This document shows positions 50,432-55,655 of a DNA stretch of 64,000 bases, in pieces. The position numbers and the translations under genes are program-made. Location of the stretch: assembly GCF_004366715.1 (NCBI RefSeq), contig NZ_SOQZ01000008.1, positions 1-64,000 of the forward strand. The letters are read 5' to 3'. The notes below the pieces were generated by a model. The model was not told the DNA's origin, searched no databases, and saw only the letters and a program-made list of their open reading frames with translations. The stretch's first letter is position 1; each line of letters starts with the position of its first letter. Source of the DNA: Meridianimaribacter flavus. Its GTDB lineage: Bacteria; Bacteroidota; Bacteroidia; Flavobacteriales; Flavobacteriaceae.

Positions 50432-50995
50432 ATGACATTTAGAAAACTTAAAATAAGCAACATTGTTTTTTTAGTAATAATAGTTTTAATGCTTATTCCT
50501 CAAACAAGGCAACCTATTCAAGTAGCAATTCAATCTGTGATTTCAAAGTTTAGTCCTTCGGTTATTGATAAAGAAGACCGAAAAAAAATAGAGTATTCTA
50601 GTTGGAACTTAAGAGATTTAAATGGCAACGAGTTTAATTTTAAGGACGCTAAAGGTAAAGTGGTGTTTATAAATCTTTGGGCAACTTGGTGTCCTCCTTG
50701 TATTGCAGAATTTCAGTCTATTCAAGATTTGTATAATGATTATAACGAAAGCGTTGTATTTTTATTAGTTTCAGATGAATCTCCTGAAGTCATTAATGCG
50801 TTCTTAGATAAAAAAGGGTATAATATTCAAATTTTTAATCCTTTGACCAAGTATCCTGAAGGTCTTAGTTCAAGAAGTATTCCTAGAACATTTATTGTAG
50901 ATAAAGAAGGATATCTTGTGGTTGATAAAAGTGGAGCTGCTGATTGGAACAGTGATAAGGTTCGTGAACAGTTAGACGAATTACTTATTAAGTAA
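50432..50995 (+). CDS. TlpA-family disulfide reductase
   Basis: 187 residues with an N-terminal membrane helix (~10-25). Thioredoxin domain with LWATWCPPC (C87 and C90) and cis-Pro loop SIPRTFIVD. A membrane-tethered periplasmic thiol reductase. Its last 15 bases overlap the convergent lycopene cyclase gene. Confidence 0.92.
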   Translation: MTFRKLKISNIVFLVIIVLMLIPQTRQPIQVAIQSVISKFSPSVIDKEDRKKIEYSSWNLRDLNGNEFNFKDAKGKVVFINLWATWCPPCIAEFQSIQDLYNDYNESVVFLLVSDESPEVINAFLDKKGYNIQIFNPLTKYPEGLSSRSIPRTFIVDKEGYLVVDKSGAADWNSDKVREQLDELLIK

Positions 50996-51673
50996 TTTTG
51001 ACTGGAAAAACTCAGTTAACACTAAGTTGGTTAAAATTAAGGTAAAAGCATAAATACTGTCTTCAATAGGTATTGTAAAAAGTCTTATACCCAAATTTTC
51101 AGCATCATTATACCAAACCACTTCGTTTTCAATACAACTTCCTGTTAAAATTCCATTCACAATAAAAAAAGGAATAAGCATCACTATAAAGGTTAAATAG
51201 TAGGTTCTAAGTAATTGTAAATTATACTTTATAACTAACAAAAGAAGTATTACAGCATAACTAAAATTAACAAGAGTGTACCATTTGCTGTAAAAGAATA
51301 TGCTCAAAAATAAAAAGAGTATAATTAAACAGTAACTAAGTTTTTTAGTAAAACCTTCAGATAGTTTTTTGTGTGGAAAGTAATATAAAAGTGAATGGTG
51401 AGTAAACACACATGCATACGGAATACAAATAAAAAACAGCCATTCTTCAATAGGCAAACCAAGAAATTTTTGTCCTAAAAAATAGGTGTCGTTAAAACCC
51501 CAAAAACCATTTTGTGTAAATAATACATCCCAAGGAATGTAAAACAGCATAGTTATAACTATTGAAATAGCTAATGATTTCCAGTATTTATAAAACTTTA
51601 ATTTAGGGTGAAAACTAAATAAAAAAGGAATAGATAACGAACCAATATTAAGAAGTAGGTATAAGTAGTTCAT
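50981..51673 (-). CDS. Lycopene beta-cyclase, fused CrtYc-CrtYd type
   Basis: 230 residues with about seven membrane helices. Both repeats of the heterodimeric-type cyclase are present: PIEEW (74-78) and PIEDS (202-206) are the conserved PxE(E/D) motifs. It would convert lycopene to beta-carotene. Last gene of the crt operon, 3 bases after crtZ. Confidence 0.9.
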   Translation of the reverse strand: MNYLYLLLNIGSLSIPFLFSFHPKLKFYKYWKSLAISIVITMLFYIPWDVLFTQNGFWGFNDTYFLGQKFLGLPIEEWLFFICIPYACVFTHHSLLYYFPHKKLSEGFTKKLSYCLIILFLFLSIFFYSKWYTLVNFSYAVILLLLVIKYNLQLLRTYYLTFIVMLIPFFIVNGILTGSCIENEVVWYNDAENLGIRLFTIPIEDSIYAFTLILTNLVLTEFFQSKLLNK

Positions 51674-51676
51674 AAA

Positions 51677-52126
51677 TTACTTTTTGAAATACTTAAAAGG
51701 AACAAACAGCATTCCAAAGCATTCTCCATCACTTTTTCCTAAGTGTTTATGATGCATTTTATGTGCACGACGAATACCTCTAGCGTACCAATTGTTAGCA
51801 TTTCTAAAGAGCTTAAATCGCTGATGAATAAAAATATCATGGACTATAAAATAGGTAGCTCCATAAGCAAAAATACCTAAGCCAATAGGTAAGCAAAACC
51901 AAACGTTTTCATAGCTCCATAAATAAAAGCAAACAATGCTTACAGCTGCGTAAAACAAAAAGAAAGCATCATTGCGTTCAAACCAACTGTCATGATCTTT
52001 TCTGTGATGATCTTTGTGCAAATGCCATAAAAACCCATGCATGATGTATTTATGGGTAAACCACGCCATAAATTCCATAAAGCAAAATGTGCCTAAGAAA
52101 ACTAATATCCAGTAAAGTGTTTGCAT
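51677..52126 (-). CDS. crtZ: Beta-carotene hydroxylase CrtZ
   Basis: 149 residues, di-iron membrane hydroxylase. His-rich motifs HKYIMH (H25, H30), HLHKDHHRKDH (H35-H45) and the C-terminal HKMHHKH are conserved. It hydroxylates both beta-rings of beta-carotene to zeaxanthin. It lies 11 bases after crtB. Confidence 0.93.
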   Translation of the reverse strand: MQTLYWILVFLGTFCFMEFMAWFTHKYIMHGFLWHLHKDHHRKDHDSWFERNDAFFLFYAAVSIVCFYLWSYENVWFCLPIGLGIFAYGATYFIVHDIFIHQRFKLFRNANNWYARGIRRAHKMHHKHLGKSDGECFGMLFVPFKYFKK

Positions 52127-52137
52127 CGTTTTTAAAG

Positions 52138-52977
52138 TTACAATAAATTCAATTGATATTTAACATAACTCCTAGTTAAGAGTTCAATTTTTTTAGAATT
52201 TGAAACCCTAATACGTGTAGACTTTATTTTGAGTGCAGGTGTTTTCTTGAGCTTTTTTAATAATTGGCTGTAATATCTGTAAGCCATGAATACACCAAAT
52301 TTAGCCTCAATTGGTAACTGTTTTATACCTTCCAAACCTTTGCTAAAATCTTCTTCAATATCATTAATTATATCTTGTTTTGATTGCTCGTCAAGTTTAG
52401 ATAAATCAGCATTAGGAAAATAGCTTCTGTTTAAATCTTCAAAATCGGCCTTTAAGTCTCTTAAGAAATTTACTTTTTGAAAAGCAGAACCCAAACTCAT
52501 AGCACTATCTTTAAGTTTTTGGTATTTCTCTTCATCACCTTTAACAAATACCTTTAAGCACATTAACCCAACAACATCAGCAGAACCATAGATGTATTCT
52601 TTAAACTCGTCTTGTGTTAAATAATCTGTTTTATGTAAATCCATTTTCATGCTTTTCATAAAAGCAGTGACAAGAGCTTTATCGATATTGTATTTATGAT
52701 ACGTTTCTTGAAACGCATTTAAAATAGGGTTCAAGCTAATTTTATTGTGTATTGCTAGTTCTAGGTCTTTTTCAAACCAATGAAACAAAAACTCTTTATT
52801 GTAGTCATGAAAAGAATCTACAATCTCATCAGCAAACCTTACAAAACCATAAATGTTGTAAATGTCTTGACGAATGGATTTAGCAAGCATTTTTGTTGCT
52901 AATGAAAAAGAAGTGCTGTACGTTTTAGTGGTGATTTTACTGCACTCATGAGAAACAGTGTCAAATAGAGCTTTCAT
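52138..52977 (-). CDS. crtB: Phytoene synthase CrtB
   Basis: 279 residues. First Asp-rich motif DEIVD (50-54) in YGFVRFADEIVD and second RDLKADFEDLNRSYFP bind the diphosphates of two geranylgeranyl diphosphate molecules. Condenses them to phytoene. Starts 2 bases after crtI; no GGPP synthase is in the window. Confidence 0.95.
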   Translation of the reverse strand: MKALFDTVSHECSKITTKTYSTSFSLATKMLAKSIRQDIYNIYGFVRFADEIVDSFHDYNKEFLFHWFEKDLELAIHNKISLNPILNAFQETYHKYNIDKALVTAFMKSMKMDLHKTDYLTQDEFKEYIYGSADVVGLMCLKVFVKGDEEKYQKLKDSAMSLGSAFQKVNFLRDLKADFEDLNRSYFPNADLSKLDEQSKQDIINDIEEDFSKGLEGIKQLPIEAKFGVFMAYRYYSQLLKKLKKTPALKIKSTRIRVSNSKKIELLTRSYVKYQLNLL

Positions 52978-52979
52978 AA

Positions 52980-54446
52980 TTAAAGAGAATGATGTTTGTT
53001 TATTAGTTCTGCAGCCAATTTCCCAGATATTAATGATGGTGGAACACCAGGTCCAGGAACGGTAAGTTGTCCAGTAAAATAAAGGTTGTTAACCTTTTTA
53101 CTTTTTAATTTAGGTCGTAAAAATGCAGTTTGTAATAGCGTATTGGCCATTCCATAGGCATTTCCTTTATAGGAGTTATATTCTGATATAAAATCATTCA
53201 CACAAAACGACTCTTTAAAAAGAATATCTTCTTTAACCGATTGAGAAGTTAATGCTTCAAATCGATTGATAATTTTATCAAAATAACTACTTCGTAACGC
53301 TTCGGTATCCTCAAGCCCTGGAGCTAAAGGTATTAAAAAAATTCCAGCTTCTTTATCATTAGGAGCAGTAGAATTATCAGTTATTGAAGGAAAACTAGCA
53401 TAGAATAAAGGTTTTTCTGGCCATTTAGGGTTATCATAAATAGCTTCGGCATGTGTGTCAAAGTCCACATCAAAAAACAAAGTATGATGATTTACATTTT
53501 TTAGTTTTTTATTAAACCCAACATAAAATAGGAGTGAAGAAGGAGCAAAAGTCTTTTTGGTCCAATAAGCTTCACTATATTGCCTATAGGATTCTTCAAG
53601 TAAAGTTTCGGTATGATGATAATCTGCACCACTTAAAACAATATCACAATTAATTATTTTGCTGCTGTTGGTAATAATGGTATTGGCTTTACCATTATCT
53701 ACGAAAATCTTTTGAATTGGGTTTTCAGTTTTAATAGTAACACCAAGTTCTTTTGCTAGTTTTTCAAGCGCTAATATTACTTGGTACATACCTCCTTTTG
53801 GATGAAAGGTGCCTAATCCAAAATCGGCATAATTCATAAAATTATAAAACGAAGGTGTGTCGCTTGGTTTAGCGCCTAAAAATAAAACAGGAAACTCTAG
53901 AATTTGTACTAAGCGTTTATTGCTAAATGCTTTTCTAACATCTTTTTTAATAGTACCAAAAAACTGATTTAATTTTTTAGCTGTTTGTAAATTCACAAGC
54001 TCTAGAGGAGAAACTCCAGGGTTATATACCAAATCCTTGATGGCAATATTGTAGTTGTCTTCGGCTTGTTGAATGAACTTTTTAAGTTTTTTAGAGCTTC
54101 CTGGTTCTTCTTTTTCAAATGCAATACAGATTTTATCTAAAGTATCTTCAATGGTGATAAAATCATTTTTCCCAAAATAAACACTATATGCAGGATTGAG
54201 CTTTTCTAATTGATAATAGTCTTTAGGATGCTTATTAAAATCGCTAAAAAAGCGTTCAAACACATCTGGCATCCAATACCATGTTGGACCAATATCAAAT
54301 GTAAAACCATCTTTTACATATTGTCTAGCTCGACCACCTATGGTCTTATTTTTTTCGTAAATGGTTACGTCATAACCATACTTAGCTAAGTAACATGACG
54401 CAGCCAAAGACGAAAACCCAGAACCTATAATTGCAACTTTTTTCAT
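52980..54446 (-). CDS. crtI: Phytoene desaturase CrtI
   Basis: 488 residues. N-terminal dinucleotide fold IGSGFSSLAASCYLAKYG then YEKNKTIGGRARQY, GPTWYWMP, and the C-terminal signature YFTGQLTVPGPGVPPSLISG for FAD. Introduces four double bonds into phytoene to give lycopene. First structural gene of the operon with its own promoter 45 bases from the regulator. Confidence 0.95.
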   Translation of the reverse strand: MKKVAIIGSGFSSLAASCYLAKYGYDVTIYEKNKTIGGRARQYVKDGFTFDIGPTWYWMPDVFERFFSDFNKHPKDYYQLEKLNPAYSVYFGKNDFITIEDTLDKICIAFEKEEPGSSKKLKKFIQQAEDNYNIAIKDLVYNPGVSPLELVNLQTAKKLNQFFGTIKKDVRKAFSNKRLVQILEFPVLFLGAKPSDTPSFYNFMNYADFGLGTFHPKGGMYQVILALEKLAKELGVTIKTENPIQKIFVDNGKANTIITNSSKIINCDIVLSGADYHHTETLLEESYRQYSEAYWTKKTFAPSSLLFYVGFNKKLKNVNHHTLFFDVDFDTHAEAIYDNPKWPEKPLFYASFPSITDNSTAPNDKEAGIFLIPLAPGLEDTEALRSSYFDKIINRFEALTSQSVKEDILFKESFCVNDFISEYNSYKGNAYGMANTLLQTAFLRPKLKSKKVNNLYFTGQLTVPGPGVPPSLISGKLAAELINKHHSL

Positions 54447-54449
54447 GAA

Positions 54450-54482
54450 TGTTTAACAAATATAAAAAAAGATTAAACAAAA
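54450..54482 (-). promoter_or_regulatory. crtI promoter with flanking inverted repeat
   Basis: TATATTTG (-7 type, on minus at 54457-54464) lies between TGTTTAA (54450-54456) and TTAAACA (54473-54479), a 7-bp inverted repeat. A nearby TTTTG is only 13 bases from the -7, shorter than usual. Candidate operator of the adjacent MerR regulator. Confidence 0.45.
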
Positions 54483-54491
54483 TAAAAATAT

Positions 54492-55385
54492 TTATATTGA
54501 GTCTACTAAATTTTTAATGGAAGTGTAGCGTTTAATCTTTTTATTAATTGATGATTCGTCTATTTCTAAAGCTAATCTCCCTAAGATATGTAATTTGTTT
54601 TCTTTTTTTAATAATGTATTGTAAAAAGAATTGAGATAATTATCAATATTATCTGTATCAGGTTTTATTGTAAAATAGCTTATAAAGTCTACATGATCAT
54701 AATGAGTCAGTAAATCTTCAAGACTTTTGCTTGGTACGCTTGCACCTAAATAGATAGTTTGATAACCTAATTTTGTAAGTTCAAAATTTACAAACTGTAA
54801 ACCAAGTTCATGGATTTCATTTTCAGGAAGAAATAAAGCATAAACTCTGTCATGTTTTTTTATTTCAGCAGTTTGAAATTGCTCAGTATTAACTAATATT
54901 TTCTGCTTTATCAGTTCAGAAATAAAATGTTCTTGTGCAGGAGTTATTGTATTGGTTTGCCATAGAAAACCAATTTCTTCTAATAAAGGAATAAATACTT
55001 CATAGAAAATTTCTGAAAACGTTTTTTCTTCTTCTAAATTCTTAAATGTATTAATGAAAAGAGCTTTGTCAAAGTTTAGTGCAGCTATCTTAAAAGTATT
55101 TAAAAGATGGTTTTCATTAGAAGAGATTGCAAGTTCCTTTGCTTTTTCAATAATTTCTTCAGGAGTTAGTTTTGCAATTTTTGAAATCTTTAAACCATTA
55201 TTGTAAAGAGCAGTAATGTTTAAAAGCTTTTGTAGGCTTTCAATACTGTAAGTTCTAATATTAGTTTCAGTACGGTTGGGAGCTAATAGGTTGTAGCGTT
55301 TTTCCCAAATACGTATTGTGTGTGCCTTGATACCCGAAAGGTGTTCAAGGTCTTTGATACTGAATTCGTTTTTAATGTTGTTCAT
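54492..55385 (-). CDS. CarH/LitR-type MerR regulator with B12-binding domain
   Basis: 297 residues. Residues ~7-70 are a MerR winged helix (FSIKDLEHLSGIKAHTIRIW). Residues ~95-170 are the four-helix cap with W142 followed after nine residues by E152-H153, the Wx9EH signature above the cobalamin. ENEIHELG gives E190, H192 and G195, the ExHxxG motif whose His binds cobalt. The later GG motif is changed (HILGRLAL). In Thermus and Myxococcus CarH, adenosylcobalamin plus light releases repression of carotenoid genes. Here it lies directly upstream of crtI. Confidence 0.9.
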   Translation of the reverse strand: MNNIKNEFSIKDLEHLSGIKAHTIRIWEKRYNLLAPNRTETNIRTYSIESLQKLLNITALYNNGLKISKIAKLTPEEIIEKAKELAISSNENHLLNTFKIAALNFDKALFINTFKNLEEEKTFSEIFYEVFIPLLEEIGFLWQTNTITPAQEHFISELIKQKILVNTEQFQTAEIKKHDRVYALFLPENEIHELGLQFVNFELTKLGYQTIYLGASVPSKSLEDLLTHYDHVDFISYFTIKPDTDNIDNYLNSFYNTLLKKENKLHILGRLALEIDESSINKKIKRYTSIKNLVDSI

Positions 55386-55402
55386 CTTTTACTTAAAAAA
55401 AC

Positions 55403-55414
55403 TAAACAAAATTA
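55403..55414 (-). promoter_or_regulatory. Promoter of the CarH-like regulator
   Basis: TAATTTTG (-7 type) on minus at 55407-55414. It overlaps the 10-mer TAAACAAAAT (plus, 55403-55412), which also occurs in the crtI promoter (54474-54483), suggesting shared control. Confidence 0.45.
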
Positions 55415-55438
55415 ATAAAAAAGAAGTAATTTAAAAAG

Positions 55439-55524
55439 TGCGCACGAGAAGACTCGAACTTCCACGACCAAAAACGGTCATTAGGCCCTCAACCTAACGC
55501 GTCTACCAATTCCGCCACGTGCGC
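55439..55524 (-). tRNA. tRNA-Leu(GAG)
   Basis: 86 nt class II tRNA with long variable arm. Acceptor GCGCACG/CGTGCGC; anticodon loop TTGAGGG between TTAGG/CCTAA gives GAG. Discriminator A; CCA is not encoded. Confidence 0.96.
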
Positions 55525-55545
55525 AAAAATGAAGTGTTCAAAAAT

Positions 55546-55580
55546 AAAAAAAGTTAAGCATTTCGCTTAACTTTTTTTTT
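55546..55580 (-). terminator. Terminator between tRNA-Lys and tRNA-Leu
   Basis: AAGTTAAGC (55551-55559), loop ATTTC, GCTTAACTT (55565-55573), with A-run and T-run extending the stem. On minus it ends tRNA-Lys transcription before tRNA-Leu. Confidence 0.8.
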
Positions 55581-55582
55581 AG

Positions 55583-55655
55583 TGACTTGGCTGGGGCTCG
55601 AACCCAGGACCCTCTCCTTAAAAGGGAGATGCTCTACCAACTGAGCTACCAAGTC
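55583..55655 (-). tRNA. tRNA-Lys(TTT)
   Basis: 73 nt. Acceptor GACTTGG/CCAAGTC, discriminator A; anticodon loop CTTTTAA gives TTT; T loop TTCGAGC. CCA not encoded. Confidence 0.97.

Follow-up and report, generated by a model that had tools for sequence, protein, structure and literature searches.

A CarH-like regulator and a palindromic predicted operator at the carotenoid genes of Meridianimaribacter flavus and other Flavobacteriaceae

A gene for a MerR-type regulator with a cobalamin-binding half stands directly before a carotenoid operon in the window analysed here, which is a 64,000-nt stretch of the Meridianimaribacter flavus genome (contig NZ_SOQZ01000008.1). We assign a probability of about 0.6 to the reading that this flavobacterial, CarH-like regulator is an adenosylcobalamin (AdoCbl)-dependent repressor in the dark that is released by light. 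The earlier note on this DNA had interpreted the locus as light-dependent pigment synthesis under a CarH photoreceptor. That interpretation is supported in part, by a near-invariant cobalamin pocket, genes for AdoCbl supply, a predicted operator over the crtI promoter and targets in relatives that concern light or photo-oxidative damage; its assignment to CarH in the strict sense is given up.

The regulator and its cobalamin pocket

Both MerR_1 and B12-binding_2 were found in the regulator above the Pfam cut-offs, with the N-terminal MerR winged helix scoring 54.1 bits against a cut-off of 21.6 (PF13411). The C-terminal Rossmann domain PF02310 gave no match in the regulator at E<=1e-3, and the protein is not among the three PF02310 matches of the genome. 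The closest solved relatives are the Thermus thermophilus CarH chains 3whp and 5c8d (E ~6e-12), and a single-sequence AlphaFold2 fold was unusable (predicted local distance difference test, pLDDT, 38.5). The gene occurs as one copy in the genome. A scan of genome contigs found no relatives.

In other genomes the regulator gene was found in 28 of 40 and, among family genomes, in 175 of 199, with the genome of M. flavus counted in both sets. We read 54 loci, comprising the 28 from the 40-genome set (own locus included) and the 26 best further family loci, which do not form a random sample. At 45 of these loci crtI lies at most 105 nt behind the regulator, in the same orientation. The arrangement is therefore ordinary for the family and not a product of chance, and it is not special to this organism; it is also already in print (PMC6974559, PMC11855829).

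Checked residue by residue, W142, E152-H153, E190, H192 and G195 lie where the earlier note had placed them. In the Wx9EH signature, W142 and E152 are present in all 54 proteins, which come from across the Flavobacteriales, and H153 in 53; in the D/ExHx2G/P motif with the lower-ligand His, the counts are 54 for E190, 53 for H192 and 51 for G195. Columns of the cobalamin half kept in at least 96% of the 54 proteins, whose identity to the window protein goes as low as 29%, include those of Thermus G128, W131, E141, H142, E175, H177, G192, G199 and P203. Because W131, E141, H142 and H177 are described as key AdoCbl residues of Thermus CarH (PMC11796333), this near-invariance argues that AdoCbl is still bound by the regulator. 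On the DNA-helix side, R25, W27, E28, R30 and Y31 are invariant wherever present in the alignment.

The upper-ligand His132 of Thermus CarH is replaced by Gln143, a change that had been missed earlier together with both operator sites described below, and Gln is found at this place in 47 of the 54 proteins. A His after the Trp as upper ligand of the light state is described as common in CarH, not universal. CtMerR (Arg) and SasPcob (Gln at the His132 position) also lack the upper His and are light-responsive cobalamin domains, although the former has a diverged DNA-binding head and the latter another domain arrangement (PMC11796333). As SasPcob shows, a light response can persist when this His is absent. 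Three of the four elements of the SignatureFinder pattern for light-responsive cobalamin-binding domains (GxxW, EH, GxxH, GxxxP) are present; the GxxH position reads N189-E-I-H192, with Asn at the Gly of CtMerR and SasPcob.

The genome encodes a PduO-type adenosyltransferase, MetH and methylmalonyl-CoA mutase (the latter two above cut-off) and an IcmF-like mutase (a piece of the protein was scanned), and it carries a cobalamin riboswitch before a B12-receptor-like TonB gene. Judged by this gene content, the organism is probably able to form AdoCbl from an imported cobamide. Regulator-bearing genomes have a PF01923 adenosyltransferase in 27 of 28 cases and regulator-free ones in 8 of 12, a weak association (Fisher p 0.02) that is uncorrected for kinship and genome size.

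A palindromic predicted operator and its targets

The predicted operator is a palindrome with the consensus TTTGTTTAA-N16-TTAAACAAA, and its copy before crtI overlaps the predicted -7 box. The flavobacterial sigma-A -7 consensus, TAnnTTTG, lies at -12 to -5 (PMC9723704), which would place the crtI transcription start near 54452, about 6 nt before the ATG, with a 5' untranslated region of ~6 nt. Two TTGTTNAAC-type cores occur in the gap between regulator and crtI at 31 of the 54 loci; the spacing of the cores is exactly 21 bp in every one of these 31, whatever the length of the gap. Some loci with a short gap (e.g. L007, L008, L010, L012, L049, L055) have no core there and carry a site only in the regulator promoter. 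Within the window the 32-bp consensus occurs once, the chance mean being 0.03.

A weaker form of the site is located at the promoter of the regulator gene itself: its left half shares bases with the predicted -7 box, and its right half coincides with the first bases of the gene. In the window only 6 of 9 bases of this right half fit the consensus. The start-codon test covered 48 of the 54 loci, with six excluded since the script had placed the start elsewhere. TTTGTTTAA, matched at 7 or more of 9 bases, was found at exactly -25 in 38 of them, at -35 in seven and at every other offset from -35 to -15 in two at most. The gene begins with ATGAACAA in 35 of the 48.

Rhodopsin genes were found in 22 of 119 genomes, and none in that of M. 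flavus. We used 20 of their upstream regions, all from regulator-bearing genomes, after leaving out one below the cut-off and one fragment with a stop. The mean best match to TTTGTTTAA-N16-TTAAACAAA was 15.55 of 18 at spacer 16, followed by 14.40 at spacer 6, with shuffles averaging 11.8. At spacer 16, 14 of the 20 regions reached 15/18 and 17 reached 14, while 15 was reached by 8 of 1555 further windows of 120 nt from the regulator loci. By eye, the distance between palindrome and -7 box in these promoters varies by 0-2 bp, which makes the operator separable from the promoter. The divergent neighbour of rhodopsin is the retinal-forming beta-carotene 15,15'-dioxygenase in all three cases tested, so that opsin and chromophore enzyme can share a single palindrome. 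A direct-repeat operator was considered and rejected. It is compatible with the crtI site, where the near-palindromic cores GTTTAAC/GTTAAAC allow either reading, but in the rhodopsin promoters direct repeats score a mean of at most 14.20, against 15.55 for the inverted repeat at spacer 16.

In relatives whose genes are arranged differently, the palindrome was also noted before an ECF (extracytoplasmic function) sigma gene between regulator and crtI (18/18 in L020, 17 in L024), which suggests that other families of this order relay the light signal to a sigma factor, and before a fasciclin gene adjoining the regulator (18 in L016, 15 in L026). Diverged relatives have the altered half-site TTTGTATAA at spacer 16 near the regulator, scoring 18/18 to the variant in L023, 17 in L027 and only 15 in L028.

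The 119 family genomes were searched with a strict 32-bp pattern, TTTGTTTAA-N8-TANNTTTGTTAAACA with at most one mismatch, and with the reversed pattern as a control. Altogether 117 sites were found in 67 genomes, and the reversed control gave 0. No site occurs in the eight of the 119 genomes that lack the regulator (Fisher p = 0.001), and a looser pattern likewise gave 0 matches in the 12 regulator-free genomes of the 40-genome set. Fifty of the 117 sites lie directly before crtI, 48 of them adjoining the regulator by coordinates and two assigned by the crtI start behind them. The remaining 67 are elsewhere, and 59 of these have an open reading frame (ORF) of 60 aa or more that begins no further than 350 nt away. 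Eight do not; for L145 the neighbouring site was taken instead, so that one site went unexamined.

Genes for fasciclin lipoproteins are the largest group of targets, standing behind 26 sites in 25 genomes, and all 26 were confirmed by Pfam. They are followed by GLPGLI/Porph_ging genes (6 sites), GHMP kinase genes with weak mevalonate-kinase similarity (5), a type that we take to be SRPBCC-like (3; the scanned member, L165, had no Pfam or NCBIfam match), and the TetR_C_23 type, CrtW type and an unnamed family with two sites each. Single sites precede genes for a DASH cryptochrome, a photolyase, a rhodopsin and MsrA, one crtI, one regulator gene and seven others. Target names other than fasciclin, cryptochrome, photolyase and rhodopsin depend on one scanned member per group together with BLAST clustering or inspection by eye, and in two groups that member came from the looser-pattern search. 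A family of ~100-140 aa recurs behind the operator in L108, L124 and L127; its scanned member (L108) matched nothing in Pfam or NCBIfam, and the family is a candidate for an unnamed light-regulated protein. The occurrence of the site in many relatives points to control of surface proteins, DNA repair and, in some of these relatives, light-driven pumps by a switch of this type.

In the genome of M. flavus, the strict pattern with up to three mismatches yielded two sites, at crtI and at a fasciclin lipoprotein gene on contig 3, and one reversed-control match. The contig 3 site is a perfect palindrome (C3:134666-134699, L203) between the fasciclin gene and a divergent 236-aa ORF with a signal-like start, and it may serve both flanking genes. 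Less specific searches were uninformative: TTGTTWAA pairs with two mismatches occurred at 181 places versus 177 reversed, and the bare palindrome with three mismatches at 51 versus 39. For this reason only sites backed by relatives were kept, and the predicted targets in this genome are the crt operon, the regulator gene, the fasciclin lipoprotein gene and possibly a TetR-type regulator gene. A two-mismatch palindrome (C10:14105-14138, L210) lies 28 bp before the latter, whose protein resembles by eye the TetR_C_23 targets of relatives (L097, L107, L138, L139). Another two-mismatch palindrome (C3:324174-324207, L208) ends 6 bp before the cobalamin riboswitch and, given the counts for the bare palindrome, could be chance.

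Probable light-released repression and its alternatives

In the mechanism that we propose, AdoCbl would be held in the dark between the Wx9EH helix bundle and His192, the regulator would assemble, and two DNA-binding domains of the assembly would grip the inverted repeat TTTGTTTAA-N16-TTAAACAAA. As the repeat overlaps the -7 element, RNA polymerase would be blocked at crtI and, probably more weakly, at the regulator gene. Light would then cleave the Co-C bond and loosen the assembly, and the genes would be expressed, with targets in relatives expected to include those for rhodopsin and retinal synthesis and for photolyases. Gln in place of the upper His, together with the missing dimer salt-bridge pair, implies that the light state would be stabilised differently from that of Thermus CarH. 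The analysis establishes the order of the genes, the conservation of residues and operator, the identity of the targets and the presence of B12 supply genes; from these, binding of the regulator to the operator and to AdoCbl, the direction of control and the response to light are inferred.

Several results count against this reading, beginning with class membership. The strict definition of CarH combines Wx9EH with the full B12 motif including GG (PMC8156234, PMC9304148). By alignment, the GG remainder of this motif is kept in only 1 of the 54 proteins; the alteration that had been raised as a caveat is real, corresponds to G269-R270 and is family-wide. Since the published definition requires GG, the regulator is CarH-like and not CarH by the strict published criterion. 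It also scores 72.7 bits against the 400 required by the NCBIfam CarH equivalog NF052513, and at the SxT/V position it reads S236-Y-F (the Thermus protein used has GG but SAL there). The claim that all three diagnostic features are retained, while correct for the named residues and the MerR head, is therefore an overstatement in view of GG, of NF052513 and of the bis-His residue, which is Gln. Ile and Ser stand in place of the dimer-interface pair R176-D201 of the Thermus protein, and Gln in place of its G160; the roles assigned to these positions come in part from PMC9304148. Furthermore, the predicted 34-bp operator is inverted, unlike the tandem 11-bp direct repeats (nAnnTnnACAn) of TtCarH (PMC8156234); the Thermus repeat and the flavobacterial site (TTAAACA) have TnnACA in common.

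The surveys contribute further such points. No site was found at the strict pattern in 44 of 111 regulator-bearing genomes. With the looser pattern and no mismatch allowed, 15 of 60 genomes had matches, 27 in all, but the reversed pattern also had four, and one of the 27 lay in an order-level genome (G217) that had not been checked for the regulator. Among the rhodopsin upstream regions, 10 of 20 also reach 15 at spacer 6, and three (L188, L193, L198) score below 14 at spacer 16. One regulator-bearing genome (G008, 99% complete) has no PF01923 adenosyltransferase, and we found no expression or binding data for the regulator gene. Finally, the H132A variant of Thermus CarH photolyses and stays mostly tetrameric after light, in a study that notes a contrary earlier report (PMC10442372), so that Gln143 could mean a poor light switch.

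The behaviour of H132A would also fit a sensor of B12 availability, that is, an AdoCbl-binding repressor with Gln143 that does not disassemble in light and reports the vitamin, or oxygen and redox state through the cobalt. The palindrome 6 bp before the cobalamin riboswitch, possibly a chance match, points in the same direction. AdoCbl is a light-labile compound, however, and several targets (photolyase and cryptochrome, rhodopsin, carotenoids) concern light or photo-oxidation. As SasPcob with Gln moreover responds to light (PMC11796333), we regard such a sensor as unlikely.

A slightly slimmer chance is given to a B12-independent repressor like Myxococcus xanthus CarA, which also combines a MerR head and a B12-type domain and controls carotenogenesis. 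The pocket would then be a relic and the signal a partner protein, as with CarA and CarS or with a LOV protein and class II LitR. The family-wide loss of GG agrees with this idea, and there are precedents in that CarA binds DNA without B12 (PMC8156234) and a LOV protein is the partner of class II LitR (PMC9758184). However, CarA is described as lacking exactly the Trp of Wx9EH (PMC9304148) that is invariant in the flavobacterial proteins, and the cobalt-ligating His is retained in 53 of 54.

We consider it very improbable that the conserved sequence marks a class of promoters or is bound by a factor other than the regulator: part of the motif is the general flavobacterial -7 box and the palindrome precedes an ECF sigma gene in two relatives, but the 34-bp palindrome keeps its spacing in rhodopsin promoters while the -7 box shifts, its left half holds a fixed place in most promoters of the regulator itself, the eight regulator-free genomes have no site, and the altered half-site of the diverged relatives (weaker in L028) lies near the regulator.

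The locus and its significance

The gene order given earlier was reproduced by the ORF check: the regulator is followed after 45 bp by crtI-crtB-crtZ-like-crtYcd, all on the minus strand (Table 1). The crtZ-like name is our assumption from the His motifs and the place of the gene, and Pfam and NCBIfam scans of this protein gave no match. CrtI scores above the cut-off of NF058655, a bifunctional phytoene desaturase/3,4-desaturase, so that a product other than zeaxanthin is possible. Genes for tRNA-Leu(gag) and tRNA-Lys(ttt) (55438-55655) lie on the same strand just upstream of the regulator, with 23 bp between tRNA-Leu and its predicted -7 box.

Table 1. Genes and predicted sites of the carotenoid locus in the window
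Feature	Position	Strand	Basis
CarH-like MerR/B12-binding regulator, 297 aa	54492..55385	-	W142, Q143, E152-H153, E190-H192-G195, G214-P218, G269-R270
crtI, phytoene desaturase	52980..54446	-	NF058655 and TIGR02734 above cut-off
crtB, phytoene synthase	52138..52977	-	SQS_PSY above cut-off
crtZ-like, presumed beta-carotene hydroxylase	51677..52126	-	His motifs and place
crtYcd, fused heterodimer-type lycopene cyclase	50981..51673	-	TIGR03462 above cut-off, two stretches
Predicted crt operator TTTGTTTAA-N16-TTAAACATT	54448..54481	-	Conserved in relatives
Predicted crtI -7 box TATATTTG	54457..54464	-	Consensus match
Predicted autoregulatory operator TTTGTTTAG-N16-ATGAACAAC	55377..55410	-	Weaker form; position conserved
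Predicted regulator -7 box TAATTTTG	55407..55414	-	Consensus TAnnTTTG

Compared with known systems, the regulator shares with Thermus thermophilus CarH (class I LitR) the MerR head, the Wx9EH helix-bundle cap, the lower-ligand His, GxxxP and carotenoid neighbours, and differs from it in Gln for His132, GR for GG and Ile/Ser for R176/D201, at ~26% identity. The same kind of gene is known from the same place in the same family: in Flavobacteriaceae strain GF1 the zeaxanthin genes are preceded by a MerR gene whose product has a B12-binding domain, and regulation by photooxidative stress was suggested (PMC6974559), while in Nonlabens spongiae a MerR gene is first in the myxol cluster (PMC11855829). 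In the accessible text of these two reports we saw no pocket analysis, operator or regulon. In the open-access literature, to which the search was directed (subscription papers and supplements being outside its scope), we found no report of the operator, the regulon or the link to rhodopsin promoters. The regulator with its crt genes is thus already known, whereas the operator, regulon and rhodopsin link are new here.

These results provide the flavobacterial carotenoid regulator with a testable predicted binding site and a list of targets, and the light control of flavobacterial rhodopsin genes with a candidate mechanism. They also define a natural set of CarH relatives, spread through the family, in which the adenosyl pocket is retained and the bis-His ligand is lacking; this set is relevant to the switching mechanism of cobalamin photoreceptors. 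For M. flavus the prediction is that pigment, the fasciclin lipoprotein and the regulator would respond to light only with B12 present. On a broader scale, we see an even chance that a whole photobiology regulon in Flavobacteriaceae is switched by light through a single B12-based photoreceptor repressor that has a palindromic operator and a non-His light state; the regulon would cover carotenoids, isoprenoid supply, photolyase and cryptochrome, fasciclin lipoproteins and, via the rhodopsin-blh intergenic region, rhodopsin. If this is true, rhodopsin production in these bacteria would depend on both light and scavenged vitamin B12.

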